Assembly: GCA_016938735.1 (NCBI GenBank)
Contig: JAFGUB010000008.1
Location: forward strand, 124,001 to 188,000
DNA from: Campylobacterales bacterium
Lineage (GTDB): Bacteria; Campylobacterota; Campylobacteria; Campylobacterales; Sulfurimonadaceae
DNA length: 64,000 nucleotides
Direction of reading: 5' to 3'
In this document: positions 16,042 to 32,139 of the stretch, one piece after another
Layout of the letters: each line of letters begins with the position of its first letter
Numbering within the stretch: the first letter of the stretch is position 1
The notes under the pieces: generated by a model
What the model was told of the DNA's origin: nothing
Seen by the model: only the letters and a program-made list of their open reading frames with translations
Database searches by the model: none
Program-made: the position numbers and the translations under genes

Positions 16042-16764
16042 ATGATCATCATCCCCGCCCGCATGGCCTCTACCCGTTTTCCCCAAAAAGTGCTTGCCGA
16101 TATCGGAGGCATTCCCATGGTGGTGCGTACCGCCCAGAGGGTTGCGTCGCTTGACCGCGTGGTCGTCGCGGCCGACGATGAGGCGATTTTGCGTACATGT
16201 AAAGCCTACGGCGTCGAAGCGATGCTCACCTCCGATACCCACAAAAGCGGCACCGACCGCATCAACGAATGTGCGGAGATTGTAGGCGTGGGGGATGATG
16301 AGCTGATCATCAACGTCCAAGCCGACGAACCCTTTATCGAAACGGAGGTCGTGCACGCGCTCATGCAACGGCTGCGCACACTTCAAGCGCAAGCGGAGCC
16401 TTTTATCATGGCAAGCTGCTACAACGCCATCAACGAAGCCTCCGCCCAAGATCCCAACCTTGTCAAAGTGGTCCTTGATGCCCATCACAACGCGCTCTAC
16501 TTCTCACGCGCAGCCATCCCCTACAACCGCAGCGGCGCGGCGTATTACTGCGGCCACATCGGCATCTACGGCTTTGACCGCCGCTCACTGCGTGCTTTTT
16601 GCGCCTTTGACGACGCACCGCTAGAAGACATCGAAAAGCTCGAACAGCTCCGCACCCTCTATCATGGTCAAAAAATCAGCATGGTGAAAGTTGCCAGCAC
16701 CGGCTTTGGGATCGACACGCCCGAAGATTTGGCGCGTGCCAAGGAGATTTTTCAGATCCGCTAA
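16042..16764 (+). CDS. kdsB: 3-deoxy-manno-octulosonate cytidylyltransferase (CMP-KDO synthetase)
   Basis: The 240-residue protein begins IIIPARMASTRFPQKVLADI, the nucleotide-binding signature of the family, and contains VQADEPFI and AAIPYNR. It activates KDO with CTP for lipopolysaccharide inner-core synthesis in the cytoplasm. A GAAGGA ribosome binding site precedes the ATG. It is transcribed divergently from the trmN-like operon and its end overlaps the convergent 68-residue gene by four bases. A TACATGTA copy (16194) is read as TCK. Confidence 0.95.
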   Translation: MIIIPARMASTRFPQKVLADIGGIPMVVRTAQRVASLDRVVVAADDEAILRTCKAYGVEAMLTSDTHKSGTDRINECAEIVGVGDDELIINVQADEPFIETEVVHALMQRLRTLQAQAEPFIMASCYNAINEASAQDPNLVKVVLDAHHNALYFSRAAIPYNRSGAAYYCGHIGIYGFDRRSLRAFCAFDDAPLEDIEKLEQLRTLYHGQKISMVKVASTGFGIDTPEDLARAKEIFQIR

Positions 16765-16967
16765 CGCGCGGGGGTAATGGTGATCGCAAAACCTTCCATG
16801 TTCTCAGAGAGGCTGAAGCGGTGCTTGTGGCAGAAATTTGAATTCATGATACGCAGCATCGACTCTGCCTCCTCTTTGGCCTCTTGTTTGGTGCCAAACT
16901 CCGAAAACGAACTGAGTCCGCTTTTGAGAAAACAGCTACAACCGTTGTGAACCGTTACGCTATACAT
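16761..16967 (-). CDS. Small conserved-looking protein, function unknown
   Basis: The 68-residue protein (MYSVTVHNGCSCFLKSGL...) has a CSC near the N-terminus, a helical middle and a C-terminal FAITITPAR. The start is supported by AGGAGG spaced 6 bases upstream. The ATG is the centre of a TACATGTA palindrome. It follows the response regulator gene by 9 bases and is probably the last gene of the chemosensory operon. I do not recognise the family. Confidence 0.65.
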   Translation of the reverse strand: MYSVTVHNGCSCFLKSGLSSFSEFGTKQEAKEEAESMLRIMNSNFCHKHRFSLSENMEGFAITITPAR

Positions 16968-16970
16968 GTA
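16963..16970. repeat. TACATGTA containing the start codon of the 68-residue gene
   Basis: The central ATG of the palindrome (16967-16965 on the minus strand) is the start codon, with AGGAGG just upstream. Confidence 0.85.
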
Positions 16971-16976
16971 AACCTC

Positions 16977-18362
16977 CTAAAAATCAAAAATATCATCCAG
17001 ATCGCCTGCGGCGTCGCCGCCCTGATCGGGGCTTAACATCACACCGATCATCTGGGCATTGGCGCTGATGGTGTCATCGAGAAAATCGACGCTCGGCGCG
17101 CCGTCATGAAAGATCATGCGCTGCCAGCTGATGAGGTCGTTGCTAAAGGCATGCGCCATCGGCCCCAGCGCACCGGAGTTCTCACGAAACGTATCAATGT
17201 GCTGCGCAATCACCGCCGAAAGCTCGTCTAGCGCAAGCGCTATGCGGTACGATTCATTATATCCACGCAAAATTTTGGCGATCTGAGCGAGATAGGCGCA
17301 AATCTCCTCGACCTCATGCACTTCGATGTCGCTGCTGCCCACAATCAGCAACAGCGAACTAAGCTTACCCATGTAGAGCTCTACCTCGTCAAGGTCATCA
17401 TGATCCATGTAATCAAATACGTGCAACTCCTGTGCGGACCCAAACGAACCCGACGGCACCACGGGCTCAGGCATCAAAGTCTCTTTTGGCTCAATAGGGA
17501 CCGTCGATACTATAGGCACTACTTGTGTCACTTTGGCCGTGTGGGCAATTTTTGGCTGCGATATTGCAGCAACAGGAACTTCGCGCTCCGTAACTGCGGC
17601 TTCGATAGGAAGCGCAAAGGTGATCCGCTCTTTCGTTCGCTTATATTGCACGCTGATTCCATTTTTTTCAAGCACACCGTTCACCTCATCGCTATCAAGC
17701 AGTTCCATGTGGGTCACTGTGAAATAACGCATCATTTCTGACTCTTCTACGACTACCTCGCTTTGAATTCCGGCTCTTCTTTGCCAGTCACACAGCGTAA
17801 AGACCACGCGCACCAGATCACCTAGTGCCTCACTGCGCAGTGTGTCGCTGAGCAAATAGTACTCCCAAAACTCTGCCAGCGACTCTTCACTCCCCATCAT
17901 AAAAATCAGGCGGCGGCTAAATACCTTTTGTGTAAAGAGATTCAGCGCCTCTTTGTTACGTTTTTGGTGATGGCGCGCATCGATAAGCGAGAGGTAATTT
18001 CCAAGGCGGCTGTTGAAGATATCGGCATTGATCGGTTTGGAGATGTAATCCTCCGCCCCGCCGGTAAGAATCTCTTTTTGACGTTGCACATCGTCGATGG
18101 CGGAGACGGCGACGATCATCACCTTCTTATCACCCTTACGGATCGCTTTGGTGGCATCGATTCCGTTGAGTTCTGGCATCATAATATCCATGAAGATCAG
18201 ATCATAGTGCTTGTTTTTGGCATTTTCTACCGCTATGGCACCGTTTTCAGCCTCATCAATCTCAAAAACTACGGAACCGTTCTCCTCTTGGTAATCGTCT
18301 AACAGCAGACGTACGATCATTCGATTGTTTTTATTATCATCAACGATGAGAATGTGGTACAT
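16977..18362 (-). CDS. Response regulator with receiver and long uncharacterised C-terminal region
   Basis: The 461-residue protein has an N-terminal receiver: ILIVDDNKNNR, phosphoacceptor in IFMDIMMPELNGI near residue 59, and IVAVSAID then ISKPI. Residues 130-461 form helical regions separated by a Val/Pro/Thr-rich linker (about 255-300). No known output domain is recognised; the final part is acidic and ends in DIFDF. The gene overlaps the kinase gene upstream by 23 bases, so the two are a coupled pair at the end of the chemosensory operon. Its ATG lies inside a TACATGTA. Confidence 0.85.
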   Translation of the reverse strand: MYHILIVDDNKNNRMIVRLLLDDYQEENGSVVFEIDEAENGAIAVENAKNKHYDLIFMDIMMPELNGIDATKAIRKGDKKVMIVAVSAIDDVQRQKEILTGGAEDYISKPINADIFNSRLGNYLSLIDARHHQKRNKEALNLFTQKVFSRRLIFMMGSEESLAEFWEYYLLSDTLRSEALGDLVRVVFTLCDWQRRAGIQSEVVVEESEMMRYFTVTHMELLDSDEVNGVLEKNGISVQYKRTKERITFALPIEAAVTEREVPVAAISQPKIAHTAKVTQVVPIVSTVPIEPKETLMPEPVVPSGSFGSAQELHVFDYMDHDDLDEVELYMGKLSSLLLIVGSSDIEVHEVEEICAYLAQIAKILRGYNESYRIALALDELSAVIAQHIDTFRENSGALGPMAHAFSNDLISWQRMIFHDGAPSVDFLDDTISANAQMIGVMLSPDQGGDAAGDLDDIFDF

Positions 18363-19488
18363 GTAACTCCTTTATAGCTCCGTAAATTTTCACCTGCGCT
18401 CCTCCCAACAATGGATCACTTCCCAGTTTAATCCCGTATCCGAAGAGATCGCAAACCTTCTTGACCACATAGAGCCCAACCCCTATCCCTTTGTCTTCCC
18501 GCGTCATAGCATCGACGTCGGCTTGCTCAAAAAGATCAAAAAGACGCGCCTGCGGATGACGGAACCCTTGACCGTTGTCCGCCACACAAAGAACAAAACG
18601 CCCCTCTTCAACACGACAAGCAATACGCACGCTACCGCCTCCGTAGGTTACGGCATTACCGATTAGATTGTACACCATTGCGCCAAAAGCTTTATAGTCA
18701 CCCTCTATCCTCAATGCGGGATTGATATTGATTTGCAGCGACAAAGCTTGCGGATCGAACTTGGCGCAGAGCCTTTGCACCAGCTCCAAGAGCTCTATCG
18801 ACTCGTAATGCGGCGTCAGAGTCTGATCGCGCAGACGAACCGCAAGCGTGATATTCTCAATCATATCGAGCATCTGCTCTCCGCTTTGCAGGGTCAATTT
18901 GGCCTCTTCACGCATCAAAACGACTTTGCTGTGCTCTATCTGATTGAGATGCTTCAAAAGGTGACGCGAAAAGTTGATCACCGCGTTGAGCGGTGTACGC
19001 AGCTCATGGGTAAAGAGCATCAAAAAAGAGTCTTTGATGCGGTTAATCTCTCTATAGTGACGCTTTTGCTCCATCAGCCGATCGATCTTTAACTGTATCT
19101 GCTTTTGCTGCTGTGCCCGTCCTGCATGCACCACCGCGGTCACATCTTCGATTAACACCAAAACTTCACTCATCTGCGGTGTCATCATCGGGATAGCGGT
19201 CAGATCAACGATCAGCTCTCGCTCATTCTCGAGGTAGCAACTTTTGCGTCCCCGCCATGTCTCTCCGCGTTGCAGCGTCGCCGAAAGCTCCGTAGGCAAA
19301 ACGCCCTCCTCAAGCAGTGGATTAACGGACCTGTGCCCCTCATGAGAACCGAAAAGCGCTGTAAAGCGCGCGTTTTGCTCTATAATCTCTCCTGCGGCAT
19401 TGTGCCTAGAAAGGATCAAGTGACGCTCAATCGCATCATAGAGAAGCTCTTTTTTGCTTACATGTAAGCCTTTCTCCAAGCGATCCAT
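18340..19488 (-). CDS. PAS-like sensor histidine kinase, cytoplasmic
   Basis: The 382-residue protein has a PAS-like N-terminus (residues 15-120), a coiled coil, a HisKA domain with FTHELRTPLNAVINFSRH (phosphoacceptor His near residue 162) and a HATPase domain with NLIGNAVTYGGG, ADNGQGF and GIGVGLYVVKK. No membrane helix is seen. It starts 6 bases after the ParA-like gene and overlaps the response regulator gene. A TACATGTA (19459) is read as LHV near the N-terminus. It probably connects the chemosensory operon to a phosphorelay. Confidence 0.88.
   Translation of the reverse strand: MDRLEKGLHVSKKELLYDAIERHLILSRHNAAGEIIEQNARFTALFGSHEGHRSVNPLLEEGVLPTELSATLQRGETWRGRKSCYLENERELIVDLTAIPMMTPQMSEVLVLIEDVTAVVHAGRAQQQKQIQLKIDRLMEQKRHYREINRIKDSFLMLFTHELRTPLNAVINFSRHLLKHLNQIEHSKVVLMREEAKLTLQSGEQMLDMIENITLAVRLRDQTLTPHYESIELLELVQRLCAKFDPQALSLQININPALRIEGDYKAFGAMVYNLIGNAVTYGGGSVRIACRVEEGRFVLCVADNGQGFRHPQARLFDLFEQADVDAMTREDKGIGVGLYVVKKVCDLFGYGIKLGSDPLLGGAQVKIYGAIKELHVPHSHR
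18358..18365. repeat. TACATGTA containing the start codon of the response regulator gene
   Basis: The central ATG (18362-18360 on the minus strand) is the start codon of the 461-residue response regulator, with AAAGGAG immediately upstream. Confidence 0.85.
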
Positions 19489-19494
19489 CGCCCT

Positions 19495-20250
19495 CTACCT
19501 ACCCATTCTCAACAGCAGCTCCTGCGCAAAGATGCCGTAGTCTTTCATCCCCTTGCCCCTTTGCAATGCGAGCACCGCAGGCTCTTGAGACTCAAACTGT
19601 TTGGAGAGTTTGATATCCACGCCGATGGGAGAGAAGAGTTTTTCGGCGCCAAAGGAGGTACGCACCCTCTCTAGTGCCTCTTGATGCTCTTTGATATGCG
19701 GGTTGAACATGACGGGTAAAATACCCACCTCGGCCAGCTCCCGCTGCGCAAAAGATGCGCTTTGATAGATGGCACGCATCATCTGTCCCACCGCCACAAC
19801 ACCCAGATGGTGCGGCACAAAGGGAATAACGACTGCATCGGCCACTTCAAGGGAATTTTTCAGCAGTGCGTCAAAAGTGGGCGGAGTGTCGATGATGCAG
19901 TAATCGAAAAAGTCGGCAATCTTTTCACGTTTGAAACGGCTTTTGAGCATCCCGCGTAGGTCGCTGTAATCATAAACATCAAAAAAAGCGAGTGCGGGCG
20001 AGAGTGTCAGACGCTCATGCACCGTCGGAATAAAGGTCTCGCTGAGCGTCGTACCCAAAAATACGGAGTGTGCCCCTACCCCCTCGGAGGGTTCGCAACC
20101 CACACCGATCGAAGCGTGCCCCTGTGTGTCAAAATCAAGCAGCAGCACAGAGTGGCTTTTGGCCAGCTCCGTTGCCAGATTGACCGCCGTAGTGGTCTTG
20201 GCGGAGCCGCCTTTGCGGTTACTAATGACAATGGTTTTCACCAGCCTCAA
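19495..20250 (-). CDS. ParA/MinD-family ATPase in the chemosensory operon
   Basis: The 251-residue protein has the deviant Walker A motif ISNRKGGSAKTTTAVNLA near the N-terminus, LLLDFDTQGHASIGVG (Walker A prime) and YCIIDTPPTFDALL (Walker B). ParA-type proteins position cargo on the nucleoid or at poles; ParC and PpfA do this for chemosensory arrays in Vibrio and Rhodobacter. Its position between the STAS gene and the kinase suggests it localises this array, which is inference. No parB gene is adjacent, arguing against chromosome segregation. The start overlaps the STAS gene by 29 bases. Confidence 0.88.
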   Translation of the reverse strand: MRLVKTIVISNRKGGSAKTTTAVNLATELAKSHSVLLLDFDTQGHASIGVGCEPSEGVGAHSVFLGTTLSETFIPTVHERLTLSPALAFFDVYDYSDLRGMLKSRFKREKIADFFDYCIIDTPPTFDALLKNSLEVADAVVIPFVPHHLGVVAVGQMMRAIYQSASFAQRELAEVGILPVMFNPHIKEHQEALERVRTSFGAEKLFSPIGVDIKLSKQFESQEPAVLALQRGKGMKDYGIFAQELLLRMGR

Positions 20251-20494
20251 AGCCCTCCAGCACTTTTTGGTAGATCTTCACCTCGTCGCCATAAAGTATC
20301 TCTCCCTCATAGAGCTTGCAGTAGGCCATTACGAGTTGCAACAGCGCAAAATGGGCATCCTCACACGCACTAAAATCAAATGTGACCTTCTGCGGTGCAA
20401 CCTGCTGCAAAAATTCACGTGCGCCCACCACCGCATCTTCATACACCACCCCCTCAAGGCGCAATGTATCTTCCTCAAACTGCACACCCATCAC
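20222..20494 (-). CDS. STAS-domain-like protein without the usual phosphorylatable serine motif
   Basis: The 90-residue protein has the strand-helix layout of a STAS domain: LRLEGVVYEDAVVGAREFL, then VTFDFSACEDAHFALLQLVMAYCK. The canonical D-S-S/T-G site is replaced by ACEDAHF, so phosphorylation as in SpoIIAA is unlikely. It overlaps the CheW-CZB gene upstream by four bases and the ParA-like gene downstream. Small STAS proteins beside ParA and CheA may act as adaptors; that role is inferred from context. Confidence 0.7.
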   Translation of the reverse strand: MMGVQFEEDTLRLEGVVYEDAVVGAREFLQQVAPQKVTFDFSACEDAHFALLQLVMAYCKLYEGEILYGDEVKIYQKVLEGFEAGENHCH

Positions 20495-21267
20495 GACACC
20501 TCCCGTGCGGGCAGATCGATAGAGCGAATCACATTGATCAGCTTGCCGTCAAGCTCGATCACGCCGCTAAGATCAAGAAATTCGCTCACCTTGTTGTGCT
20601 CATCGGAGGCCTGAATCATCTTCTCATCAATATGGGCGATATCGATGATGGTAACGACCTTGATGGCAAATGCCGTCTTGCTGCCGTGATAGAGCAACAA
20701 CTTCTGCAAGGAGTTAGCAACGATATTAAACTCCGCAATGAATTGATTGATGTGGTACATCGTCAAATCATAAATCTCCATCACACTCGTATCGACCTCA
20801 TGCGAGGCTCCGGCCTGATCGCTCTTGGCCAACTCTATAACGTCAATCGCCGAATGGTGCAGACGCTTGTGAAAGTCGTTGAGCTCTTTGAGAATCTGGC
20901 TGACATGATCGTCATACGAGGTGAAGTTGTCGAGCCACTTACCCAGATTGCACAGATGCGGGTTGGTGGTTAGATGAAACGACACCCCTTTTTGAACACT
21001 GTTTTGTAGCGTCTCCACCCACACTTTGTGCTGCTGCTTCAGATCGGAAAAGAGCGCTTTGAGCTCCTCGTCATAAGTCTTGAGCCCCACCATCTGCCGA
21101 AACCCTACCACTTTGACCACGCGGTTTTCATACGACATCATCCCCTCGATAAAGGGATGAGCATTGGGAATATCGGTAATGACGGGAATCTGCGTGATGC
21201 GCTGAATATGTTCGATATCAATCGCATAACGGTTTTTGGCCACTTCAAAAATGATTAGATCTTTCAT
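20491..21267 (-). CDS. CheW-like protein with a CZB zinc-binding domain inserted in the CheW fold
   Basis: The 258-residue protein begins as CheW (DLIIFEVAKNRYAIDIEHIQRI, about residues 1-65) and ends as CheW (AFAIKVVTIIDIAHI to the end, about 185-258). Between them sits a helical region with LKQQHKVWVETL, HLCNLGKWLDNF and later histidines (FHKRLHH), matching the H-C-H-H pattern of chemoreceptor zinc-binding domains. The zinc site would be nested within the CheA/receptor coupling fold. It is a tandem paralogue of the next gene upstream and overlaps it by four bases. Confidence 0.82.
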   Translation of the reverse strand: MKDLIIFEVAKNRYAIDIEHIQRITQIPVITDIPNAHPFIEGMMSYENRVVKVVGFRQMVGLKTYDEELKALFSDLKQQHKVWVETLQNSVQKGVSFHLTTNPHLCNLGKWLDNFTSYDDHVSQILKELNDFHKRLHHSAIDVIELAKSDQAGASHEVDTSVMEIYDLTMYHINQFIAEFNIVANSLQKLLLYHGSKTAFAIKVVTIIDIAHIDEKMIQASDEHNKVSEFLDLSGVIELDGKLINVIRSIDLPAREVS

Positions 21268-22040
21268 GCTTTTCCTTTGGGTATAGTAATGGTCTCTATA
21301 ACGCTCAGCAGCCGTTTTTCATGCTCCAGCGCACCGATGATTTTGATGTATCTGCCCTCACGCAGCAGCGCGCTGTTGCGAATGATGCGCTCTTCGGGTA
21401 CCTGAATAATGCCGTCGATCAGATCGACGATCAATCCAAAGAGTCCGCCCTGCTCTGCTTTCATGATCAGTAGACGCTGCGAATCAAGCGCGACTTGATG
21501 GGTGTGCTGCGCCATCTGATCCAGATAAGAGATGGTTTGGGTGTAGTATCCATGCACTTGATGTGCTACCGCCTGCTTTGCCCTCTCTACGTCGTGCTTA
21601 CGCAGCTCCAAAACACCAACGGCGGATTTATGTAAATCCTGATGATGCCGGTTGAGCTCTCGCTTGAGCTCGCCGACCACTTCGCTATTGGTCGAAAAAG
21701 TATCGATCCAGCGCCCCAGATGACAAGCGTGCGGATCGATAGTTTTAGTAAAAGCGCAGCCACAACCGACCGCTTCATCCAGCGCTTCTATCCACTCTTG
21801 GTGCTGATGTTTCAGCTCCTCAAACATCGTTTTGACCTTCTCGACATAGTTCTCTTTTCCAATCATTGCACGAAAACTATAAACATCGAGTATCCGCTCA
21901 TCCAGACGCATCATGCCGGCACAAGCCTTGTCTTTGCCTACCGATGGGGTAAGCATCGTCACGTCTTCGATGCGCTGCACCTGCTCAAGCTCAATGGCGT
22001 AGCGCAAAGACTCCACTTGAAAGAGTAAATAACCGGTCAT
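21264..22040 (-). CDS. CheW-like protein with a nested CZB domain (paralogue)
   Basis: The 258-residue protein has the same plan and length as its neighbour: a CheW N-half (GYLLFQVESLRYAIELEQVQRI), a central CZB with LKHQHQEWIEAL, HACHLGRWIDTF and LNRHHQDLHKSA, then a CheW C-half (FGLIVDLIDGIIQV to LLSVIETI). The two differ enough that the duplication is not recent. It starts one base after the cheA stop region and precedes its twin with an ATGA overlap. It is likely to couple receptors to CheA and to sense zinc or an oxidant through the CZB site. Confidence 0.82.
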   Translation of the reverse strand: MTGYLLFQVESLRYAIELEQVQRIEDVTMLTPSVGKDKACAGMMRLDERILDVYSFRAMIGKENYVEKVKTMFEELKHQHQEWIEALDEAVGCGCAFTKTIDPHACHLGRWIDTFSTNSEVVGELKRELNRHHQDLHKSAVGVLELRKHDVERAKQAVAHQVHGYYTQTISYLDQMAQHTHQVALDSQRLLIMKAEQGGLFGLIVDLIDGIIQVPEERIIRNSALLREGRYIKIIGALEHEKRLLSVIETITIPKGKA

Positions 22041-22041
22041 T

Positions 22042-24759
22042 CTATCCTACTTGCTCATAGGCACGTTTAAGCTGATGGGCAATACCTAAAATACCCAAAG
22101 GATCAAGCACCATGATGATCTGCCCGTTGCCCAGCAGCGCCGTACCGCTAAAGACGGGATGATTCTCCATAACCCCCTCAAGCGGTTTTTGCACCACGTC
22201 AAGCTGCCCCAAAAGCTCATTGACGACCACCGCCAAAAGATTGCCTTTGACGCTAAGCACCACGATGGGCAGCGCTTTGTTGCCGAGCGCCTTCTCATCA
22301 AGCATACTCTTGATAAAGAGCAGCGGGATGACTTCGCCGCGGATGTAGATAAACGGCTCGTTGTGCAGATACTCGATCTGATCGCGTTCGATTTTAACGA
22401 TCTCGTTGACATTCTCCATCGGCAAGCCGTAATGCACGCCGGTCATGGTTACATGTAAGAGCGACGTTACCGCCAAAGAGACCGGGATGGAGAGCGTAAT
22501 CGTGGTGCCTTGATTGGGTCTTGTCGCAATACCGATCGTTCCGCCGAAGCTCTCGATCGATTTGCGTACGACGTCCATCCCGACACCGCGACCGCTGTAT
22601 TCGCTGATCGTCTCAGCCGTCGAAAGTCCGGGCAGCATCACCAACTCGGCGCGCTCCTTGTCACTGAGCGTTTCGATCTGCTCTAAGCTCATCAGCCCCT
22701 TCTCCAGCACCTTTTGTACGACCCGATCCACGTTGATTCCGGCACCGTCATCAAGGATCTCTATGATGATCTTATCGGACTGTGCATAAGCGTTAAGGCT
22801 CACCAAGCCCTCTTCGTCCTTGCCTTTTTTGCGTCTGACTTCAGGGGTCTCAATGCCGTGATCGAGCGAGTTACGCATGATATGGATCATCGGATCGGCC
22901 AGCATCTCGATCATGTTTTTATCAAGCTTCGTTTCGCCGCCGTTCATGACTAGGCGCACTTTTTTCCCCAAATTTTTGGAGATTTCGCGTACGAGCTTGG
23001 GATAACGGTCAAAGACGTAGGAGATCGGCAGCATCCGCATCGACATGATCAGATCTTGTAGCTGCTCGCTAAGTCGGTTGATGAAGGTGTACTTCTCCAT
23101 GATCGCGCGCTTGATCAGATCAACATTCATGGCATAAACGTTGTCGGCCAGATAGGGCAGAGAGTTTTTGGCGACCAACAGTTCGCCGACGATGTTCATC
23201 AACTGATCGATCGACTCCTGATCGATTTTGACGGTTTTACCGATGACGTTTTTAGAGGCATTTTTCTTCTCATCACTCTGAATTTCGGGGCGCTTGATCA
23301 CTACTGCAGGTGCGCTCATTTCAATTTGCGGCTCCGGCTCTATCACCTCTTCCAAGACCATCTGCGGCTCAGGAGTGATCGTTTGAGGCAAGGCTTGCTG
23401 CAACAATCCAAGCTTCTCGCCCAGCCACAAACGCATGGACTCGCCGTTCTCAAACTCCGGCATCTGATCATCAAAGCAGCGCATTCGCTCTAAAATCGCC
23501 CCCACCCGGGCCACCGTTGCATCATCACCTCCGGCAACCTCAAGGGCTCTGTACTGCTGCACCAAAATCGCATTCATCCCCTGATGCATCGCTGCACCTT
23601 GAAGCGTTTTAGCAGCCGATGGCTTACGTGGCTCTTCATTTGCCGCGGGTAGCCCTTGCGGCTGAGACCTGGCACGTTCACGTAACAGAGGCTCGTCCTC
23701 TTGATAAAGATAGACACTTGATGCTTGCATCGCTTCAAAAAAACCTCCGAGCCGTGGCACATCTTCACGACGGATCAGCGGCAGAAGAGCCTGCAGACGA
23801 CGTAGCTGGGCATACTGCAAGGTCTGCGTACCGATCAGAGGTAGCACCTTGGCTATGGAGTCGGCAATGACCGTCGCGTCGGGGGTTACATGTAACTCGC
23901 GCAGTAGATCGAGACGGTGTCCCGCTTCGCCTTGATCAATTGAGAGCAACGTGGCGATATCCAAAGGAGCGATTTTCAACTCATCCATGAAATTAAATAG
24001 CGCGTCTTCGATCTCACTGTAAACACCATAGACAAATGCGGTCATCTCAGTGCGCAAACTCAGGCCGTCAGGATCGTCGAACCCCCCAAGCACCGATTTT
24101 GCGGAATTTTCGCTCATGCAGCAGTGCACACCCACTACCTGCTCACCTAAAAGCGACAAGGCATAAACGGGATCATTCCCATAGACCATACAGGAGTCGT
24201 CTACATCAAAAACGATCGCGTAAAGCTGAACTGATGCACACTCCTCTTGCGTCAAATGCTCTATTTTAAAGGGGAGTTCGGCCGTCATCGAAGAGAGAAA
24301 ACGAAGTGGAATATTGACAATACTACTGATCTGCTCTATCGGCGTAAACGGAACACTCCACGCTTCATGCGCTTCGTCATCTCGGCCCATTTGCGCGCGT
24401 AATTCCACCACCACACGCTCAAGCCGCTCGGGATCAGCATCGACAATCTCTCCGCTCTCTTCAGCAGCTTCAATCAGGTTCATCACCTCATCAAAGGCAT
24501 CGTAGAGCGCATCCGTCATCGAATCAACATAAGAGAGCTTCCCTCCGCGCAGCATATCAAGTAGGTCTTCTGCCTGGTGCGTGATCTGTTTGACCGCCTC
24601 AAACCCTACAATACCTGAGCCACCCTTAAGGGTATGCGCCGCGCGAAAGACGGCGTTAAGCAGCTCCGGATCGTCCGAACCTATCTTCTCAAGATTCTGA
24701 TCGATAAATCCCAGATTCTCCCGCGCCTCTTGTAAAAACTGCTCTAACAACGGATTCAT
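22042..24759 (-). CDS. cheA: Chemotaxis histidine kinase CheA, long P2 region
   Basis: The 905-residue protein has an Hpt domain with phosphoacceptor His42 in RAAHTLKGG, a long poorly conserved region (about 140-520) including a predicted folded part and an acidic linker, a dimerisation helix pair (GKTVKIDQESIDQLMNIVGELLV), a HATPase domain (MIHIMRNSLDHGIE, DDGAGI, GRGVGMDVV) and a C-terminal CheW-like domain. No receiver is attached, unlike the CheA-Y fusion typical of Campylobacter and Helicobacter. Two TACATGTA copies (22450, 23887) are both read as LHV. It lies 9 bases after cheY. Confidence 0.95.
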   Translation of the reverse strand: MNPLLEQFLQEARENLGFIDQNLEKIGSDDPELLNAVFRAAHTLKGGSGIVGFEAVKQITHQAEDLLDMLRGGKLSYVDSMTDALYDAFDEVMNLIEAAEESGEIVDADPERLERVVVELRAQMGRDDEAHEAWSVPFTPIEQISSIVNIPLRFLSSMTAELPFKIEHLTQEECASVQLYAIVFDVDDSCMVYGNDPVYALSLLGEQVVGVHCCMSENSAKSVLGGFDDPDGLSLRTEMTAFVYGVYSEIEDALFNFMDELKIAPLDIATLLSIDQGEAGHRLDLLRELHVTPDATVIADSIAKVLPLIGTQTLQYAQLRRLQALLPLIRREDVPRLGGFFEAMQASSVYLYQEDEPLLRERARSQPQGLPAANEEPRKPSAAKTLQGAAMHQGMNAILVQQYRALEVAGGDDATVARVGAILERMRCFDDQMPEFENGESMRLWLGEKLGLLQQALPQTITPEPQMVLEEVIEPEPQIEMSAPAVVIKRPEIQSDEKKNASKNVIGKTVKIDQESIDQLMNIVGELLVAKNSLPYLADNVYAMNVDLIKRAIMEKYTFINRLSEQLQDLIMSMRMLPISYVFDRYPKLVREISKNLGKKVRLVMNGGETKLDKNMIEMLADPMIHIMRNSLDHGIETPEVRRKKGKDEEGLVSLNAYAQSDKIIIEILDDGAGINVDRVVQKVLEKGLMSLEQIETLSDKERAELVMLPGLSTAETISEYSGRGVGMDVVRKSIESFGGTIGIATRPNQGTTITLSIPVSLAVTSLLHVTMTGVHYGLPMENVNEIVKIERDQIEYLHNEPFIYIRGEVIPLLFIKSMLDEKALGNKALPIVVLSVKGNLLAVVVNELLGQLDVVQKPLEGVMENHPVFSGTALLGNGQIIMVLDPLGILGIAHQLKRAYEQVG

Positions 24760-24768
24760 CGCATCTCC

Positions 24769-25134
24769 TTAAGCATCTACCAGCAAATCAACGTACGCTC
24801 TGAGTTGATCGGGTTTGATCGGTTTGGTTTCAAATAGATTGGCACCCACTTTGTACGCTTCAACCTTATCAATCTCTTGTGCCTGAGTCGTGATCATAAT
24901 CACGGGGGTGAAGGCGTATCTGGGCTGTTTTCGCAACTCCGCAATAAAGGAGTACCCATCCATAATCGGCATATTCACATCCACGAGATAGAGATCCACC
25001 TCGGCATCCAGCGAACGTTCAAGCGCCTCCATACCATTTTCGGCCTCAACAACCGTAATACCCGAATCTTTTAAAATGGCGCCGTGATAGCTTCTCACCG
25101 TTTTTGAATCGTCCACAACCATGATCGTTGCCAT
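24769..25134 (-). CDS. cheY: CheY-like single receiver protein
   Basis: The 121-residue protein is a stand-alone receiver with VVDDSKTVRS, phosphoacceptor Asp in LYLVDVNMPIMDGYSF near residue 53, MITTQAQ and ETKPIKPDQL. It is the likely phosphate acceptor from the adjacent CheA. It is one of two single receivers in the operon. Confidence 0.9.
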   Translation of the reverse strand: MATIMVVDDSKTVRSYHGAILKDSGITVVEAENGMEALERSLDAEVDLYLVDVNMPIMDGYSFIAELRKQPRYAFTPVIMITTQAQEIDKVEAYKVGANLFETKPIKPDQLRAYVDLLVDA

Positions 25135-25142
25135 ATATACTC

Positions 25143-25523
25143 CTAAAAAAATTCGATTGATTCGTCATCGTTGACATGATGCACATTACCCGTAAACGCC
25201 TGCCTTCGCTCTTTTGCCCGCTCAAGCACATCCTCAAGCTCTTGATTGAGCCGCGTCGCATCGGCTGGTTCCGCAGCGCTTAGGTGCAGTTGACGCACAC
25301 TCTCTATCGCCTCTATCGTGGCACTTAGCTGCTGGGCGATGATATCTTGGTATTGCAGGGCTTCGGCCGCGTCGTCATCGATGCCCACACCCTGTCGTTC
25401 AAGTAAGGCAGCAAGCTTGAGCATCGACTCTTTGGAGAGCGCAATCACATCAGCTTCTACCGATCGAATATGTTCAAGCAGGCGTTCGACGTTTTGCAGC
25501 AGCATCATTGTCGCTTCCATCAT
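25143..25523 (-). CDS. Short CheZ-like phosphatase candidate
   Basis: The 126-residue all-helical protein has LQYQDIIAQQLSATIEAI near residue 60, resembling the CheZ/CheX active-site helix (a D/Q-containing D-x-x-x-Q pattern), and an acidic C-terminal tail NDDESIEFF reminiscent of the CheY-binding peptide of CheZ. It is about half the length of E. coli CheZ. It sits between two receiver genes, a sensible place for a CheY-P phosphatase. The assignment rests on these short motifs and context. Confidence 0.6.
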   Translation of the reverse strand: MMEATMMLLQNVERLLEHIRSVEADVIALSKESMLKLAALLERQGVGIDDDAAEALQYQDIIAQQLSATIEAIESVRQLHLSAAEPADATRLNQELEDVLERAKERRQAFTGNVHHVNDDESIEFF

Positions 25524-25907
25524 TCAAGAGGGGAGACGCAAAACCCGCGTAATCGCCTGCTTGAGCTGCGCAGGATTAAAAGGTTTGGTGATCCAACCTG
25601 TAAGCCCTAACTTTTTACCTTGTTCTTTGAGTTCCGGCTTCGTCTCCGTCGTCAGCATCAATATCGGCGTGCGCTGCGCACTGGGTACTTGTCTGAGCGC
25701 TTGCAAAAACTCAAACCCGTTCATATTAGGCATGTTGAGGTCTGTAATAATCAGTTCCGGAGCCACTACTCCGCTTTTGATCTCACTTAGCGCCACTCTG
25801 GCATCAAGATACTGTTTGACTTCGATCGGCATCGAACTGGTCACCATACGGGTTGAAGCGAGCGCTGTTTCACTATCGTCGATGAAAATTACTAATGGCA
25901 TTGGCAT
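25524..25907 (-). CDS. Second single-domain receiver protein
   Basis: The 127-residue receiver has IFIDDSETALAS, phosphoacceptor in LIITDLNMPNMNGFEF near residue 60, MLTTETK and ITKPFNPAQL. It is distinct from the other receiver in the operon. One may drive the motor or output and the other may act as a phosphate sink. It lies directly before the CheZ-like gene (stop TGA immediately followed by ATG) and after cheR. Confidence 0.88.
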   Translation of the reverse strand: MPMPLVIFIDDSETALASTRMVTSSMPIEVKQYLDARVALSEIKSGVVAPELIITDLNMPNMNGFEFLQALRQVPSAQRTPILMLTTETKPELKEQGKKLGLTGWITKPFNPAQLKQAITRVLRLPS

Positions 25908-25912
25908 ATCTC

Positions 25913-26743
25913 CTATTTTTGATAAACTAAAGTGGTATCAATTTTTTTTGCATTAAAGACGGAAACAATCCGGCTCATGTACTCCGCGTGCCCAAGGAGC
26001 ACATATCCTCCCGGATTGAGCATGTCATAAAAGGTCATCGCCACCTCTTTACGGCTGGCATCGTCAAAATAGATCAGCATATTTCTTGAAAAGATAATGT
26101 CAAATTTGCCGAGCTTGCGCATCTCGGTACGATCAAAGACGTTCGCCACCTTAAAATCGACCGCCCCCACAAGATCATCGACTATGGCATATCCCAACCC
26201 TTTTTTCCGGAACCATTGCGCGAGGACATTTTTGGGAATAGCATGTACCGATCGGGTGCTAAACTCTCCTTTTCGTGCCTTGTCAATGACCGTCGAATCG
26301 ATATCGATACCTACAATTTCAATGTCACGCTGATCGACAATCTTACCTTCCTCCAAAATATGCAGCACGATCGAATAGGGTTCTTCTCCCGTCGAACAGG
26401 GAGCAGAAAGAATTCGAAGCGGTGCACTTTTGGGGCGGCTACGGTTGAGCTCTGGGAGAAGATAATTCGCTACCACTTCGAATTGATTGACTTCTCTGTA
26501 AAAGTAGGTTTCATTGACGGTAATCCCATTCATCAACTCTTGAAATTCTGTGCCGTCTTTGTCCTCAAAGCGAAGCTTAAAAAAGTATTTTCTGAAATTA
26601 TCGGCACCGATTTTTTTGCATCGATCATCGACAAACTTGGCCAACTTTTCGAAATGCTTCTCTTCCTCGAGATAAATACCGCTTTTGCGGTAGATGAACT
26701 CGCTCATCTTGATAAAGTTTTCGCTTGAAAGCAGATAAGACAT
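25913..26743 (-). CDS. cheR: Chemoreceptor glutamate methyltransferase CheR
   Basis: The 276-residue protein has the CheR N-terminal helical domain and the SAM-dependent domain with LRILSAPCSTGEEPYSIV near residue 105 and FDIIFSRNMLIYFDDASRK near 215. It methylates glutamates on chemoreceptor cytoplasmic helices. No C-terminal pentapeptide-binding extension is seen. The operon's receptor also lacks a pentapeptide. Confidence 0.93.
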   Translation of the reverse strand: MSYLLSSENFIKMSEFIYRKSGIYLEEEKHFEKLAKFVDDRCKKIGADNFRKYFFKLRFEDKDGTEFQELMNGITVNETYFYREVNQFEVVANYLLPELNRSRPKSAPLRILSAPCSTGEEPYSIVLHILEEGKIVDQRDIEIVGIDIDSTVIDKARKGEFSTRSVHAIPKNVLAQWFRKKGLGYAIVDDLVGAVDFKVANVFDRTEMRKLGKFDIIFSRNMLIYFDDASRKEVAMTFYDMLNPGGYVLLGHAEYMSRIVSVFNAKKIDTTLVYQK

Positions 26744-26746
26744 TGA

Positions 26747-27370
26747 TTAACCTCGAATCATACGCACCGCATTATCAACACTGAACTCCACATACGGATC
26801 GTGATTGAAATGGGCTTTGAGTGACTCTAGCAAGGGAATGTCTTCAGGCTGACCGATCTCTGCCATATAATCCACTGCCGTCATGGCAACGTTAATATCG
26901 GACTCGCTCTCAAGCAACTCGACAAGCATATCGCGCGATTCGGGGAAATTGACGTCACCTAATACATTGATCGCAAAAATACGCAAATCACGATCATCAC
27001 CAATCAAGAACTTAACAATGTAATACTTGATCGCTTCGCCGTAGTCTTGCAACACCCCGATCGCCAGATTGCGAATATAAGCATTGTGCAATTTAAGCAG
27101 CTCCATGACGGCTTCTATCGGCGCTTCAAGCGGATCCATCAAAGAGAGCGTTGAAGCGGCTTCGGCGTCAACTGCTTTCCCGGTTGATATATCCTTGAGT
27201 ATTTCGACAAGATAAAGCGCACCACCCGGGAACTTCACCATTTCATCCATGGCATACTTGCGCTCTTCAAAAGCATCGTGTATTTCAAAATAGCTTATAG
27301 CCTCTTCAAGCGTCTCAAATTTCGGAAAGGTTGCTACCTCTTGAATCGTGTGTTTTTTGATTAGCGCCAT
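26747..27370 (-). CDS. HEAT-repeat protein between cheB and cheR
   Basis: The 207-residue protein is built of helical repeats, for example NAYIRNLAIGVLQDYG, DRDLRIFAINVLGDVN and DINVAMTAVDYMAEIG, typical of HEAT/armadillo-like modules. Such proteins usually bind other proteins. Its placement 3 bases from cheR and 12 from cheB suggests an accessory part of the adaptation machinery, which is inference. Confidence 0.8.
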   Translation of the reverse strand: MALIKKHTIQEVATFPKFETLEEAISYFEIHDAFEERKYAMDEMVKFPGGALYLVEILKDISTGKAVDAEAASTLSLMDPLEAPIEAVMELLKLHNAYIRNLAIGVLQDYGEAIKYYIVKFLIGDDRDLRIFAINVLGDVNFPESRDMLVELLESESDINVAMTAVDYMAEIGQPEDIPLLESLKAHFNHDPYVEFSVDNAVRMIRG

Positions 27371-27382
27371 GACGGTCCCTCT

Positions 27383-28435
27383 TTACAACGTGACAATTTT
27401 TTTAACGATCTGCGGAAAATCGAGCTGCTCGGTCACTCCACCACGATCATAAGCCTCTTTAGGCATCCCGTAAACGGTAGCACTGGCTTCACTTTCGCCG
27501 ATGGTATACCCACCCGCCTGTTTGATGGCGACCATACCATCCGCACCGTCATCACCGATTCCAGTCAAAATCACAGCAATGATATTTTTTCCTCCGAACT
27601 GCTTGAGCGCGCTATGAAACATCTCATCGACACTTGGTTTGAAGAATCTTCCATTGTCCTCTTTCTCTTCACGAATCACAAACTTTCCGGAAACTTTTTT
27701 ACTGAAATGCATGTGTACGCCGCCTCTAGCGACATAGATATGCCCCGGCAACAGCTCTTGATTGTGCGCCGACTCATGTACATTCAAGGCACTGACTCTG
27801 TCTAAGCGCTCCGCAAAAGCCTTCGTAAACTTCTCAGGCATATGCTGAACGACACAGACGGGATAGGGGTAATGCGGCGGCAACGAGGCGCAAATTTGCT
27901 CTATCAAACCTGGACCGCCTGTCGAAGAACCCACCAACACCACCTTGCTAAACTCAGTCACTTGAGGTGTCGTTTTCACACGGCTCTCTCCTGATGAACG
28001 CATCCGCTGCACAGGACGCCGCCCCATACGCTCTAGCCGACGCTTTGGAATTGCGCTGAGTTGTTGCACTTTCTCAAGAATATCATCACGGTTTTCCCGC
28101 TTACCGACATTCATCGTGCCCGGTTTGGCTATGTAATCCAAAGCACCGAGCTCAAGCGCTTCAATCGTCGTTGAAGCATCTTCCGATGTCAGTGAGCTGA
28201 TCATCAGTATCGGCGTCGGATGGCTCTTCATAATCTCTTTGACCGCCGTTAGCCCATCCATGACCGGCATATTGACATCCATCGTAATGAGATCAAAAGC
28301 CTTTTTTTTGACACATTCGACTGCTTCTTGCCCGTTTTTGGCCGTCTCGATCTCATACCCTAGCGTTTCGATTATTTCACTCAACTGTTTGCGTACCAAA
28401 GCAGAGTCGTCAACAATCAGTACCTTCTTGCTCAT
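27383..28435 (-). CDS. cheB: Chemoreceptor methylesterase/deamidase CheB
   Basis: The 350-residue protein has an N-terminal receiver (VLIVDDSALVRK, phosphoacceptor in ITMDVNMPVMDG near residue 56, AKPGT) and a C-terminal methylesterase domain with catalytic Ser in VLVGSSTGGPG, His in VVQHMPEKFT and Asp in LTGIGDDGADGM. It removes methyl groups from receptors when phosphorylated by CheA. Its ATG overlaps the triple-CheW stop by four bases. Confidence 0.95.
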   Translation of the reverse strand: MSKKVLIVDDSALVRKQLSEIIETLGYEIETAKNGQEAVECVKKKAFDLITMDVNMPVMDGLTAVKEIMKSHPTPILMISSLTSEDASTTIEALELGALDYIAKPGTMNVGKRENRDDILEKVQQLSAIPKRRLERMGRRPVQRMRSSGESRVKTTPQVTEFSKVVLVGSSTGGPGLIEQICASLPPHYPYPVCVVQHMPEKFTKAFAERLDRVSALNVHESAHNQELLPGHIYVARGGVHMHFSKKVSGKFVIREEKEDNGRFFKPSVDEMFHSALKQFGGKNIIAVILTGIGDDGADGMVAIKQAGGYTIGESEASATVYGMPKEAYDRGGVTEQLDFPQIVKKIVTL

Positions 28436-29805: not shown

Positions 29806-29807
29806 AC

Positions 29808-31694
29808 TTAACCTTGCTGGAGCTCATCAGCCATTACAGCCAACTCTTCAACACCTTCACTGATATGCGTGATGGTTTCAATAATCAGCTCACTGGCCTT
29901 TCGTGACTCCATTGCATTGCGCGCAGAGAGCTCCACCGCTTTTTGAATTTCACTGACCCCGATCAATACCTGATTGAGCCCTTCAAGATTTTGATCGTTA
30001 ATCGTCTTAAGACCCGTAAAGCGATCAAGCAATTCAATCAACATGTTGGTAATCGACTCGACATCGCCGACGAGGCGGTTAATCTGATGGCGCTCACTGT
30101 CTTGCCCCCCCAAAAGCTTGAGCCAATCGGTGCGCACCATGTCAATTTCGCTGTTCATCGATTCAATCGTGTCGTTAATCTTGTCGGTATTGGCTTCGGA
30201 ATCTTTGGCAAGATTGCGGATATCTGAGCTAACAACGGCAAAGCCCTTTCCAAAATCGCCGGCACGCGCAGCTTCGATCGATCCGCTGATGGCCAGCATA
30301 TTGAGCTGAATAATGGAGTTGGAGATATTGCCGACCGTCTTGTCTACGTTGCGCGTCTCTTTAACGATCACTTCGAGTTCACGGCTGGCGGTGCCCCCTT
30401 GAGACATAGAGGCTTCAAAAGCGCTGCCGATACTCTTAAGCTCATTGCGCACGTCACTGAAGGAGACTTTGAGCAGATCGAAATTGCGTCGACCGATCTC
30501 GATGAGCGCATTAATGTCTTTGGAATTTTGGATACCGCCCTCAACCAGCTCTTTATTGGACAAGACGCTTTGATTGGTCGTATTGGAAGATTTTTCAATC
30601 TGATTAAGTGCGTCGTTGACCTCATTGAGCGATTTTTGGATATCCTCCATGGCGCTGCCGATCGCATCGGCGGAAGCAGCAATCTCTTCAGCAGACTTCA
30701 TCGTATCGGTTGAGTATTTAAGCTCCTCAGCCAGATTAGAGAGCTCTTTGATGTCGTCTTCCGTCTGCGCCAAAGCATTGGACTGCACTTCGATGCCGCT
30801 GAGCGTTCGCTCTACCGAGTGAGCGATATCTTGTGACGCCTTTGCAATTTCCGCGCTTCCATCATTGATCTTACCGATTGTGGTTCCGAGATGACGCGTA
30901 AAACTGTTCATATTGCGCGCTGCTTCGACCGTAAAGGTGGCGATTTTGGTGAGTTCCTCCATCTTTGCCGTCAGTTTCGTGCCGCGTCCGCCGGTGTTCT
31001 CAATGATTTCAGTCGTACCGACAATGCTCTTGATGATATTGTCGATACTGCCTTGAATTTTATTGACCAGTTCGGAGATGAATTCAGCATTTTTTTCACT
31101 CTCTCCTGCCAATGCCCGAGTTTCGTCGGCGACAACCGCGAAGCCCTTACCATGCTCTTTAGCACGGCTCGCTTCAATGGCAGCATTAAGCGCAAGCAAA
31201 TTCGTCTGATCGGCGATTTTGGCAATAAATCCAACCGCTTCACCGATGTTTTCCGAAGACGCCTTAAGCTCTTCTGATTTTTTGGAAGACTGTTTGGCCA
31301 CATCAACCGCATTATTCATGCGTTCTACCGACTGATTGATGGTTTTGACCGCAACCATAACGTTTTCACCCGTAGAGAGTGTCGATGAGATCACGGTATC
31401 GATGCTACTGCCCATGCGGGTAATGTTGCTACTGATTCCTTTAACGTTTTTAAGCGCTTGTTCGCTTGCGCCGCTGTTCTCTTCAGCCGCTGTAGCGATC
31501 TGTTCCATTGAGGATTTAAGTTGTTCGATTGCACTGACGCTCTCTTGCGCATTGTCCAAAATGGTCGTCGCCACGCCTGCGATGCTTTCGGAGATCTGCT
31601 GCTGTTTGGCCAAAGTGCGCTGACGACGCTTATCACCCGACTGATTTGCTACCGCTGATGCGGAAGTGGTATTGCTTCTTTTGACTAGTGCCAT
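29808..31694 (-). CDS. Cytoplasmic chemoreceptor with two signalling hairpin tips and no sensor domain
   Basis: The 628-residue protein has no membrane helix or recognisable ligand-binding domain. Two receptor tips are visible: [20 protein letters not shown] with [15 protein letters not shown] (about residues 160-200), and a divergent second, NSIIQLNMLAISGSIEAARAG with GKGFAVVSSDIRNLA (about 450-490). Both sit in long heptad-rich helices. There is no C-terminal CheR-binding pentapeptide (it ends DELQQG). The gene upstream encodes an Aer/CetB-like PAS protein, so sensing probably comes from that partner. Confidence 0.87.
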   Translation of the reverse strand: MALVKRSNTTSASAVANQSGDKRRQRTLAKQQQISESIAGVATTILDNAQESVSAIEQLKSSMEQIATAAEENSGASEQALKNVKGISSNITRMGSSIDTVISSTLSTGENVMVAVKTINQSVERMNNAVDVAKQSSKKSEELKASSENIGEAVGFIAKIADQTNLLALNAAIEASRAKEHGKGFAVVADETRALAGESEKNAEFISELVNKIQGSIDNIIKSIVGTTEIIENTGGRGTKLTAKMEELTKIATFTVEAARNMNSFTRHLGTTIGKINDGSAEIAKASQDIAHSVERTLSGIEVQSNALAQTEDDIKELSNLAEELKYSTDTMKSAEEIAASADAIGSAMEDIQKSLNEVNDALNQIEKSSNTTNQSVLSNKELVEGGIQNSKDINALIEIGRRNFDLLKVSFSDVRNELKSIGSAFEASMSQGGTASRELEVIVKETRNVDKTVGNISNSIIQLNMLAISGSIEAARAGDFGKGFAVVSSDIRNLAKDSEANTDKINDTIESMNSEIDMVRTDWLKLLGGQDSERHQINRLVGDVESITNMLIELLDRFTGLKTINDQNLEGLNQVLIGVSEIQKAVELSARNAMESRKASELIIETITHISEGVEELAVMADELQQG

Positions 31695-31710
31695 TGATCC
31701 TCTCCCCTTA

Positions 31711-32139
31711 TTAATCTAGTGTTGCGTAGAGCTCTTGAGCTCTTTTAATCTCTTCTCTTGAAGGCTTCACCCGAATCGAGACATACTTGATGTTGCCATT
31801 CGTATCGGTAGAGCGTAAAACCGTCGCATAGACCCAATAGTAGCCTCCTCCCTTGCGTGCATTCTTAACATAACCAGTCCAAAACCCTTTGCTTTGCACA
31901 TCGTCCCAAAGTGATTTAAACGCCGCGCGTGGCATATCCGGATGACGCACAACATTGTGCGGCTGGCCGATCAGATCTGCCTTGCTCATATTGGCAACTT
32001 TTAAAAATGACTCGCTCGCATACGTAACGATCCCTTTTTCATCGGTCTCCGACAAAAGGTAGAGATCGTTGTAGAGAAGCTCTCCGTCTTCTAAAAACGT
32101 CAACCCTTCCGCGCTGAGCGTTTTGTCTTTTACTGACAT
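31711..32139 (-). CDS. Stand-alone Aer/CetB-like PAS energy-taxis sensor
   Basis: The 142-residue protein is a single PAS domain with the Aer-type signature NVVRHPDMPRAAFKSLWDD near residue 63, and GFWTGYVKNARKGGGYYWV. In Aer and Campylobacter CetB this PAS binds FAD and reports redox or energy state. CetB works with a separate receptor, CetA. Here the receptor gene follows 16 bases downstream, so a bipartite redox receptor is likely. GGAGG precedes the ATG. It is the first gene of the chemosensory operon. Confidence 0.88.
   Translation of the reverse strand: MSVKDKTLSAEGLTFLEDGELLYNDLYLLSETDEKGIVTYASESFLKVANMSKADLIGQPHNVVRHPDMPRAAFKSLWDDVQSKGFWTGYVKNARKGGGYYWVYATVLRSTDTNGNIKYVSIRVKPSREEIKRAQELYATLD

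Follow-up and report, generated by a model that had tools for sequence, protein, structure and literature searches.

What kind of chemosensory system does a densely packed operon in a Campylobacterales genome encode, and does it act on the flagellum? These questions are raised by a 64,000-nucleotide stretch of assembly GCA_016938735.1 (contig JAFGUB010000008.1, positions 124,001 to 188,000; here called the window), in which 17 minus-strand open reading frames (ORFs) occupy 32139 to 16761 in close succession, neighbours being separated by -29 to +16 bases. A first-pass annotation had described these genes as a 17-gene same-strand operon of unusual composition that could not be placed in a published chemosensory class without a search and might control something besides the flagellum. 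The operon itself is borne out by the measured spacing (gaps of at most 16 bases, overlaps of at most 29), and by the architecture of its proteins and the phylogeny of its CheA it is a class F9 chemosensory system, not one of the flagellar class. It is probably a complete F9 system that assembles a membrane-free, two-layered cytoplasmic array, with an Aer-type PAS protein and CheW-CZB proteins as inputs, a ParA-type ATPase that places the array, and a CheY output directed away from the flagellar switch.

The decisive feature for this classification is the double signalling domain of the receptor, DosM, which the first-pass annotation had left unnamed. DosM is soluble and contains two MCPsignal stretches, with hairpin tips near residues 165 and 464; tandem signalling domains without a sensory domain are a trait of class F9, as are three concatenated CheW domains in a single adaptor, which are present in the 457-residue CheW3. 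According to the description given by Mo et al. (PMC9321776), both architectures are unique to F9. Cognate receptors of 44 heptads are a further trait of the class. DosM can be aligned end to end with F9 receptors of proteobacteria, in the same domain order (32-36% over ~520-630 aa in the best four). CheA displays an Hpt domain with H42, a linker of ~400 residues, and dimerisation, ATPase and CheW domains in which the catalytic motifs were found; residues ~140-508 (23237-24343, minus strand), between the Hpt and dimerisation domains, match no Pfam family. Its class was assigned from a maximum-likelihood tree of the CheA core, with the CheAs of clusters containing DosM and CheW3 as references, rather than from class hidden Markov models. 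In this tree, the window CheA and its relatives group with the reference CheAs with support of 100/100, and F3, F7 and other CheAs fall outside the F9 branch.

That the operon instead belongs to F3, by which flagellar chemotaxis is normally served in this phylum, is scarcely conceivable. Such an identity would be in keeping with the presence of CheA, CheB, CheR and CheY in an operon of a flagellated lineage, but there is no CheV, the CheA has no receiver domain and falls outside the F3 branch, and the genes are clustered rather than dispersed. The true F3 genes reside elsewhere in this 2.85 Mb genome, on contig C5, as a cheV-cheAY-cheW set encoding CheV, a CheA with a receiver, and CheW. The flagellar F3 identity is thus ruled out by the architecture of CheA, its place in the tree and the presence of F3 genes at another locus, and the operon is assigned to F9 because of its DosM and CheW3, the position of its CheA and the independent F3 set; its distance from the CheV/CheA-Y flagellar class had been correctly recognised. 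It can also be placed in a published class, contrary to the earlier assessment, as F9 has been reported by Mo et al. (2022; PMC9239204, PMC9321776) in free-living Campylobacterota, beside the ancestral F3 class of the phylum. An existing description of the operon is therefore available at the level of class, and the individual accessory proteins are absent from the literature as far as its principal accounts go.

Several of the components that had appeared unusual recur in F9 clusters of other phyla. A tblastn search of plasmids with the HEAT protein returns 16 records, all of which also contain the CheW3 cluster; in those examined, the HEAT gene lies within it. A block with the order DosM-CheW3-CheB-HEAT-CheR-REC-CheA-STAS-like is found on alpha- and betaproteobacterial plasmids of five genera (Sphaerotilus, Eleftheria, Azospirillum, Methylobacterium and Methylosinus), where a small “hypothetical” protein is encoded directly after CheA, followed by ParA in Methylobacterium and Methylosinus. 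This small protein aligns with the STAS-like protein of the window, and the two share an invariant His and Gln. HEAT, STAS-like and ParA proteins are thus F9 parts and not oddities, and the description “unusual composition” is not supported. The F9 cluster of Agrobacterium vitis contains DosM, CheW3 and the STAS-like protein and has neither HEAT nor ParA, so the HEAT protein is common in F9 and is rejected as a universal marker. In Halobacterium, taxis requires a HEAT protein (PMC2666748).

The STAS-like protein scores below the Pfam gathering threshold (STAS_2, E 0.014), and its profile has no match in the PDB. In an alignment with the proteobacterial F9 homologues, His48 and Gln53 are invariant and no phospho-acceptor Ser is conserved. 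Its gene lies shortly downstream of cheA, the CZB adaptors intervening here, and is directly adjacent to cheA in other F9 clusters. The ParA protein, a P-loop ATPase with a deviant Walker A motif whose che operon also encodes a soluble receptor, has the traits of PpfA/ParA: KGGSAK[TS] replaces the usual KGGxGK[TS] in all 56 of 56 orthologs. A QGHA signature is common to it and the F9 ParAs of Methylobacterium and Methylosinus, whereas the Soj-like protein of the same genome does not have it.

Within its own lineage the operon recurs at the same chromosomal place: other genomes provide 71 loci with a nearly constant gene order, and the nearest relatives are Sulfurimonas, Sulfuricurvum and “Helicobacteraceae” metagenome-assembled genomes (MAGs). 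Across these loci HEAT and CheR are adjacent in 71/71, CheW3 and CheB in 67/71, and CheB and HEAT in 67/71, and the operon often lies between kdsB and the pair rpsO and flhA. Chance juxtaposition of the genes is ruled out because the same order recurs in 71 syntenic loci; together with the proteobacterial plasmid blocks, these provide the gene-order comparison that had been suggested. The HEAT marker is present in 73 of 201 genomes of the window's family, and all three matches in a 298-genome sample of the phylum fall in that family; the operon is therefore patchy but lineage-bound. Relative to the proteobacterial F9 core, the additions are the Aer-type PAS protein, the CheZ-like protein, a second CheY and one or two CheW-CZB proteins per operon. 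The histidine kinase (detected in about 8 of the 71 loci) and the 461-aa receiver protein are variable lineage additions. In a Sulfurimonas crateris MAG (L067 10001-19212), PAS-DosM-CheW3 is placed after ParA, and the block has therefore been rearranged at least once.

All 17 genes and the evidence for their assignments are collected in Table 1. From the PAS gene downwards, the successive spacings are 16, 2, -4, 12, 3, 5, 0, 8, 9, 1, -4, -4, -29, 6, -23 and 9 bases, and a plausible ribosome-binding site is present at most of the genes. Promoter and terminator scans of the operon gave matches no more frequent than in shuffled sequences. Pfam searches confirm PAS, MCPsignal, triple CheW, CheB, HEAT, CheR and CheA, as well as two REC-only proteins, two CheW+CZB proteins, the ParA-type ATPase, the histidine kinase and the REC protein, in agreement with the triple CheW, HEAT, Che proteins, ParA ATPase and two-component pair named at the outset. 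None of the 17 proteins (0/17) contains a membrane segment by hydropathy (maximum 1.84 vs 2.82 for FlhA). The ParA start, called at a TTG (20250), is probably a GTG 9 bases downstream (20241), to judge from relatives.

Table 1. Genes of the F9 operon, in order of transcription (window coordinates).
Feature	Position	Strand	Basis
Aer-type stand-alone PAS, 142 aa, CetB-like; probable FAD redox sensor in trans	31711..32139	-	PAS_3; Aer PAS match
DosM-type soluble receptor, 628 aa, two MCP signalling hairpins	29808..31694	-	two MCPsignal stretches
CheW3, triple CheW adaptor, 457 aa	28432..29805	-	three CheW stretches (Pfam)
CheB methylesterase with receiver domain	27383..28435	-	Pfam; motifs GSSTGGP, QHM, TGIGDDGADG present
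HEAT-repeat protein, conserved F9 accessory, N-terminal MALIKK	26747..27370	-	HEAT_2; alignment; plasmid matches
CheR methyltransferase	25913..26743	-	Pfam
CheY1, receiver-only; L/M, W and A in place of W58, Y106 and K119	25524..25907	-	Pfam; residue census
CheZ-like small helical protein	25143..25523	-	alignment motifs, conserved position
CheY2, receiver-only; V, F and Y in place of W58, Y106 and K119	24769..25134	-	Pfam; residue census
CheA, 905 aa, no receiver	22042..24759	-	Pfam; catalytic motifs; CheA tree
CheW-CZB adaptor 1, zinc ligands intact	21264..22040	-	CheW; CZB E 1.2e-6, just under cut-off
CheW-CZB adaptor 2, zinc ligands intact	20491..21267	-	CheW and CZB, E 3.4e-11
STAS-like protein, 90 aa, CheS-like by position	20222..20494	-	STAS_2 E 0.014; alignment
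ParA-type ATPase, altered Walker A KGGSAKT	19495..20250	-	AAA_31
Soluble PAS-like histidine kinase, accessory	18340..19488	-	Pfam; HELRTPL, DNGQGF, GVGLY motifs
461-aa receiver protein: REC, RsbW-like alpha/beta domain, Hpt-like bundle, tail DLDDIFDF	16977..18362	-	REC (Pfam); alignment; models
68-aa protein, invariant CxC...FCxKH	16761..16967	-	alignment

The 68-aa protein is a probable metal-binding protein by its sequence, from a small, multi-copy family with 4 matches in this genome; it is rejected as F9-specific, the family being found also in relatives without F9. Just past the window end lies a gene (L090 2255-4813; contig C36 188254-190812) for an 852-aa protein with long sensor-like N-terminal repeats, a C-terminal CheW domain and no kinase domains, a domain composition that identifies it as a putative sensor-CheW fusion.

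The candidate inputs of the system are the PAS protein and the CheW-CZB proteins. The best solved-structure match of the former is the PAS domain of Aer (E 8e-28), and the NxVRHPDMP stretch is kept. In the latter, CZB accounts for ~110 residues inserted into a single loop of the CheW fold, as the mapped insertion confirms for the two proteins that had been called nested. The His3-Cys zinc site is present in both copies (HxxW, CxLGxW and HxxLH), and its ligands are intact in at least 39 of 48 relatives. The CheW-CZB architecture is itself known (PMC8262984, PMC10653840), and the accounts given there, as far as they were available, draw no tie to F9.

A further feature joins DosM to the HEAT protein. 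Both begin with the same peptide, MA[LI][VI][KR][KR] (window 29808-31694 and 26747-27370; loci L019-L089 and L093-L098), which in its loose form occurs in 38/61 DosM and 62/71 HEAT orthologs and in 1 of 815 background ORFs; no further protein of the operon contains it. The peptide can also be recognised in the majority of the DosM and HEAT proteins from proteobacterial F9 clusters, those without ParA included. A docking partner common to the two peptides would be a simple explanation. The HEAT gene of Methylobacterium currus (L096 12833) probably begins farther upstream than annotated, at an in-frame start from which the protein would open with MALVRR. Among the relatives of the window, the N-terminal tail of DosM is strongly basic, with a mean charge of +5.5 in 32 residues. 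The basic N-terminus was considered as a ParA-binding signal; the MALVKK start, however, is present also in F9 clusters without ParA and is therefore not specific to ParA.

The output of the system can be approached through its CheYs, as the residues that Campylobacterota CheYs need for binding FliM have been listed by Mo et al. At positions 58, 106 and 119, CheY1 contains L or M, W and A, the FliM residues being lost in 63/63 orthologs; CheY2 contains V, F and almost always Y, with positions 58 and 106 lost in 61/61 orthologs. The separate F3 CheY of the same genome retains W58, Y106 and K119. Because both CheYs have lost the FliM-contact residues, a non-motor output, as had been proposed, is plausible: from their sequences, it seems improbable that these CheYs direct the flagellum, and the output of the operon is probably something other than direct motor control.

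The CheZ-like protein contains an invariant QxQDxxxQQL, in which D60 and Q64 have the DxxxQ spacing, and a C-terminal IxFF tail (IEFF in most). Profile searches of Pfam and the PDB gave no match for it. The labels CheZ-like and STAS-like hence fail at Pfam cut-offs and stand on motifs and conserved position.

Several observations weigh against a complete system whose output bypasses the flagellar switch. The two labels just mentioned are not family-level matches; the 461-aa gene, the candidate output partner, is not detected in some full-length operons (e.g. L043 and L047); flhA is present in 68 of 72 F9-bearing relatives, which makes a link to motility possible; and the example of Rhodobacter sphaeroides shows that the motor can be reached from a cytoplasmic cluster. 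It could accordingly be proposed that swimming is still governed by the F9 array, as an additional energy-sensing input located in the cytoplasm; its CheYs or its CheA would modulate either the F3 pathway or the motor, on the pattern of R. sphaeroides. The flhA count, the location of the operon beside rpsO and flhA in many genomes, and the fact that Aer-type PAS and CZB are typical energy- and redox-taxis sensors would fit such an arrangement, which is nevertheless unlikely, given the loss of the FliM-contact residues in both CheYs. Moreover, FlhA is found in most listed genomes of the family, and the co-occurrence of F9 with flagella was rejected as evidence of motor control because flagella are common in F9-negative members too; in Vibrio cholerae, deletion of the F9 CheA has no detectable phenotype under standard conditions (PMC7534058).

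An output to transcription, in which the array feeds a partner-switch-like module whose REC-RsbW-like and STAS-like proteins control a sigma or anti-sigma factor, is rather improbable as well. In a structural model of the 461-aa protein, the part behind REC has the anti-sigma factors RsbW and UsfX as top fold matches, both with a match probability of 1.00 and an E of about 0.01; its C-terminal helices match CheA P1-type bundles; and the whole model is closest to LvrC, described as a REC-anti-sigma protein (PMC13269768). A precedent may be found in Shewanella che1, where, according to the published description, a REC/anti-sigma regulator and an anti-sigma antagonist control RpoS (PMC9855816). 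Against this, the alignment of the 461-aa protein contains no conserved N-box, DxGxG or phosphorylatable His. A Bergerat fold with ATP-binding motifs, the trait of RsbW-type anti-sigma kinases, is thus lacking, and the likeness to RsbW and LvrC is to be regarded as a modelled fold resemblance, because neither these motifs nor the His are conserved. The phospho-acceptor Ser of the STAS partner is likewise missing, and some F9 clusters contain the STAS-like gene but no RsbW-like one, so that the two are not obligate partners. Since the 461-aa gene is undetected in some full-length operons, its product would be at most one output and not a universal one. The most specific version of the proposal, in which a cytoplasmic array reads redox and zinc through FAD-PAS and a CheW-CZB baseplate, reports to gene expression through the REC/anti-sigma-like protein and not to the flagellum, and has HEAT and DosM docked by their shared N-terminal peptide (MAL[VI][KR][KR]) on a common partner, is distinctly improbable as a whole.

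Under the preferred reading of a cytoplasmic F9 system, DosM would span the array, with a baseplate of CheA and CheW3 on each face; the F9 arrays of V. cholerae are purely cytoplasmic double layers (PMC7534058, PMC3964821). The Aer-type PAS protein, probably with bound flavin adenine dinucleotide (FAD), could act in trans on the receptor as a redox input, after the model of CetB and CetA in Campylobacter, and the CheW proteins with inserted CZB may sit in the baseplate itself and provide a zinc input. CheR and CheB would adapt the receptor, and ParA may use the nucleoid to position or segregate the array, the role that PpfA has in R. sphaeroides (PMC2829493, PMC3964821). CheA is predicted to phosphorylate the two CheYs, and the putative CheZ-like phosphatase and the STAS-like protein, by analogy with CheS, described as a STAS-only CheA-binding protein (PMC12654446), might discharge or sort phosphate. 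The target of the CheYs would most likely be something else than the flagellar switch; the receiver/anti-sigma-like protein encoded in the same operon is a plausible candidate.

The operon founds no new class and is a lineage variant of a known one, with accessory sensors that the F9 literature, as represented by its principal accounts, does not discuss. F9 arrays are structurally known, their function has not been established, and those accounts treat only DosM and CheW3 as markers. The locus makes this open question testable: it widens the F9 part list across phyla by HEAT, STAS-like and ParA proteins, and it offers input candidates (Aer-PAS and baseplate CZB) and an output candidate (the REC/RsbW-like protein). 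With CheYs that have lost the FliM-contact residues, it also allows a decisive comparison between an F9 system that acts on the flagellum and one that does not.

Among known systems, CetA/CetB of Campylobacter jejuni (Tlp9 with Aer1/Aer2) likewise combines a stand-alone Aer-type PAS protein with a receptor that has no sensor of its own, but works with the F3 array. CetA is located in the membrane. The R. sphaeroides cluster (CheOp3, TlpT, PpfA) resembles the operon in its soluble receptors, its ParA-type protein and the two-baseplate array, which for the operon is a predicted one; it belongs to a different class, however, with a split CheA and without DosM or CheW3, and is essential for taxis. 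Cluster I of V. cholerae (F9; CheA VC1397, CheW3 VC1402, DosM VC1403), compared here by its published description, also encodes DosM and a triple CheW, is entirely soluble and exists alongside a separate flagellar class, whereas CheW-CZB, CetB-like PAS, CheZ-like and REC/RsbW-like proteins are not part of that description. The proteobacterial plasmid clusters have no upstream PAS, CZB adaptors or CheZ-like gene in the operon and carry other receptors and receivers downstream, but display the same gene order as the window core, with ParA in two. For the F9 systems of free-living Campylobacterota catalogued by Mo et al. (2022; PMC9239204, PMC9321776), the main texts treat DosM and CheW3 and leave HEAT, ParA, the CZB adaptors and the receiver protein undiscussed; these systems, of the same phylum and class, very probably represent the same operon family.

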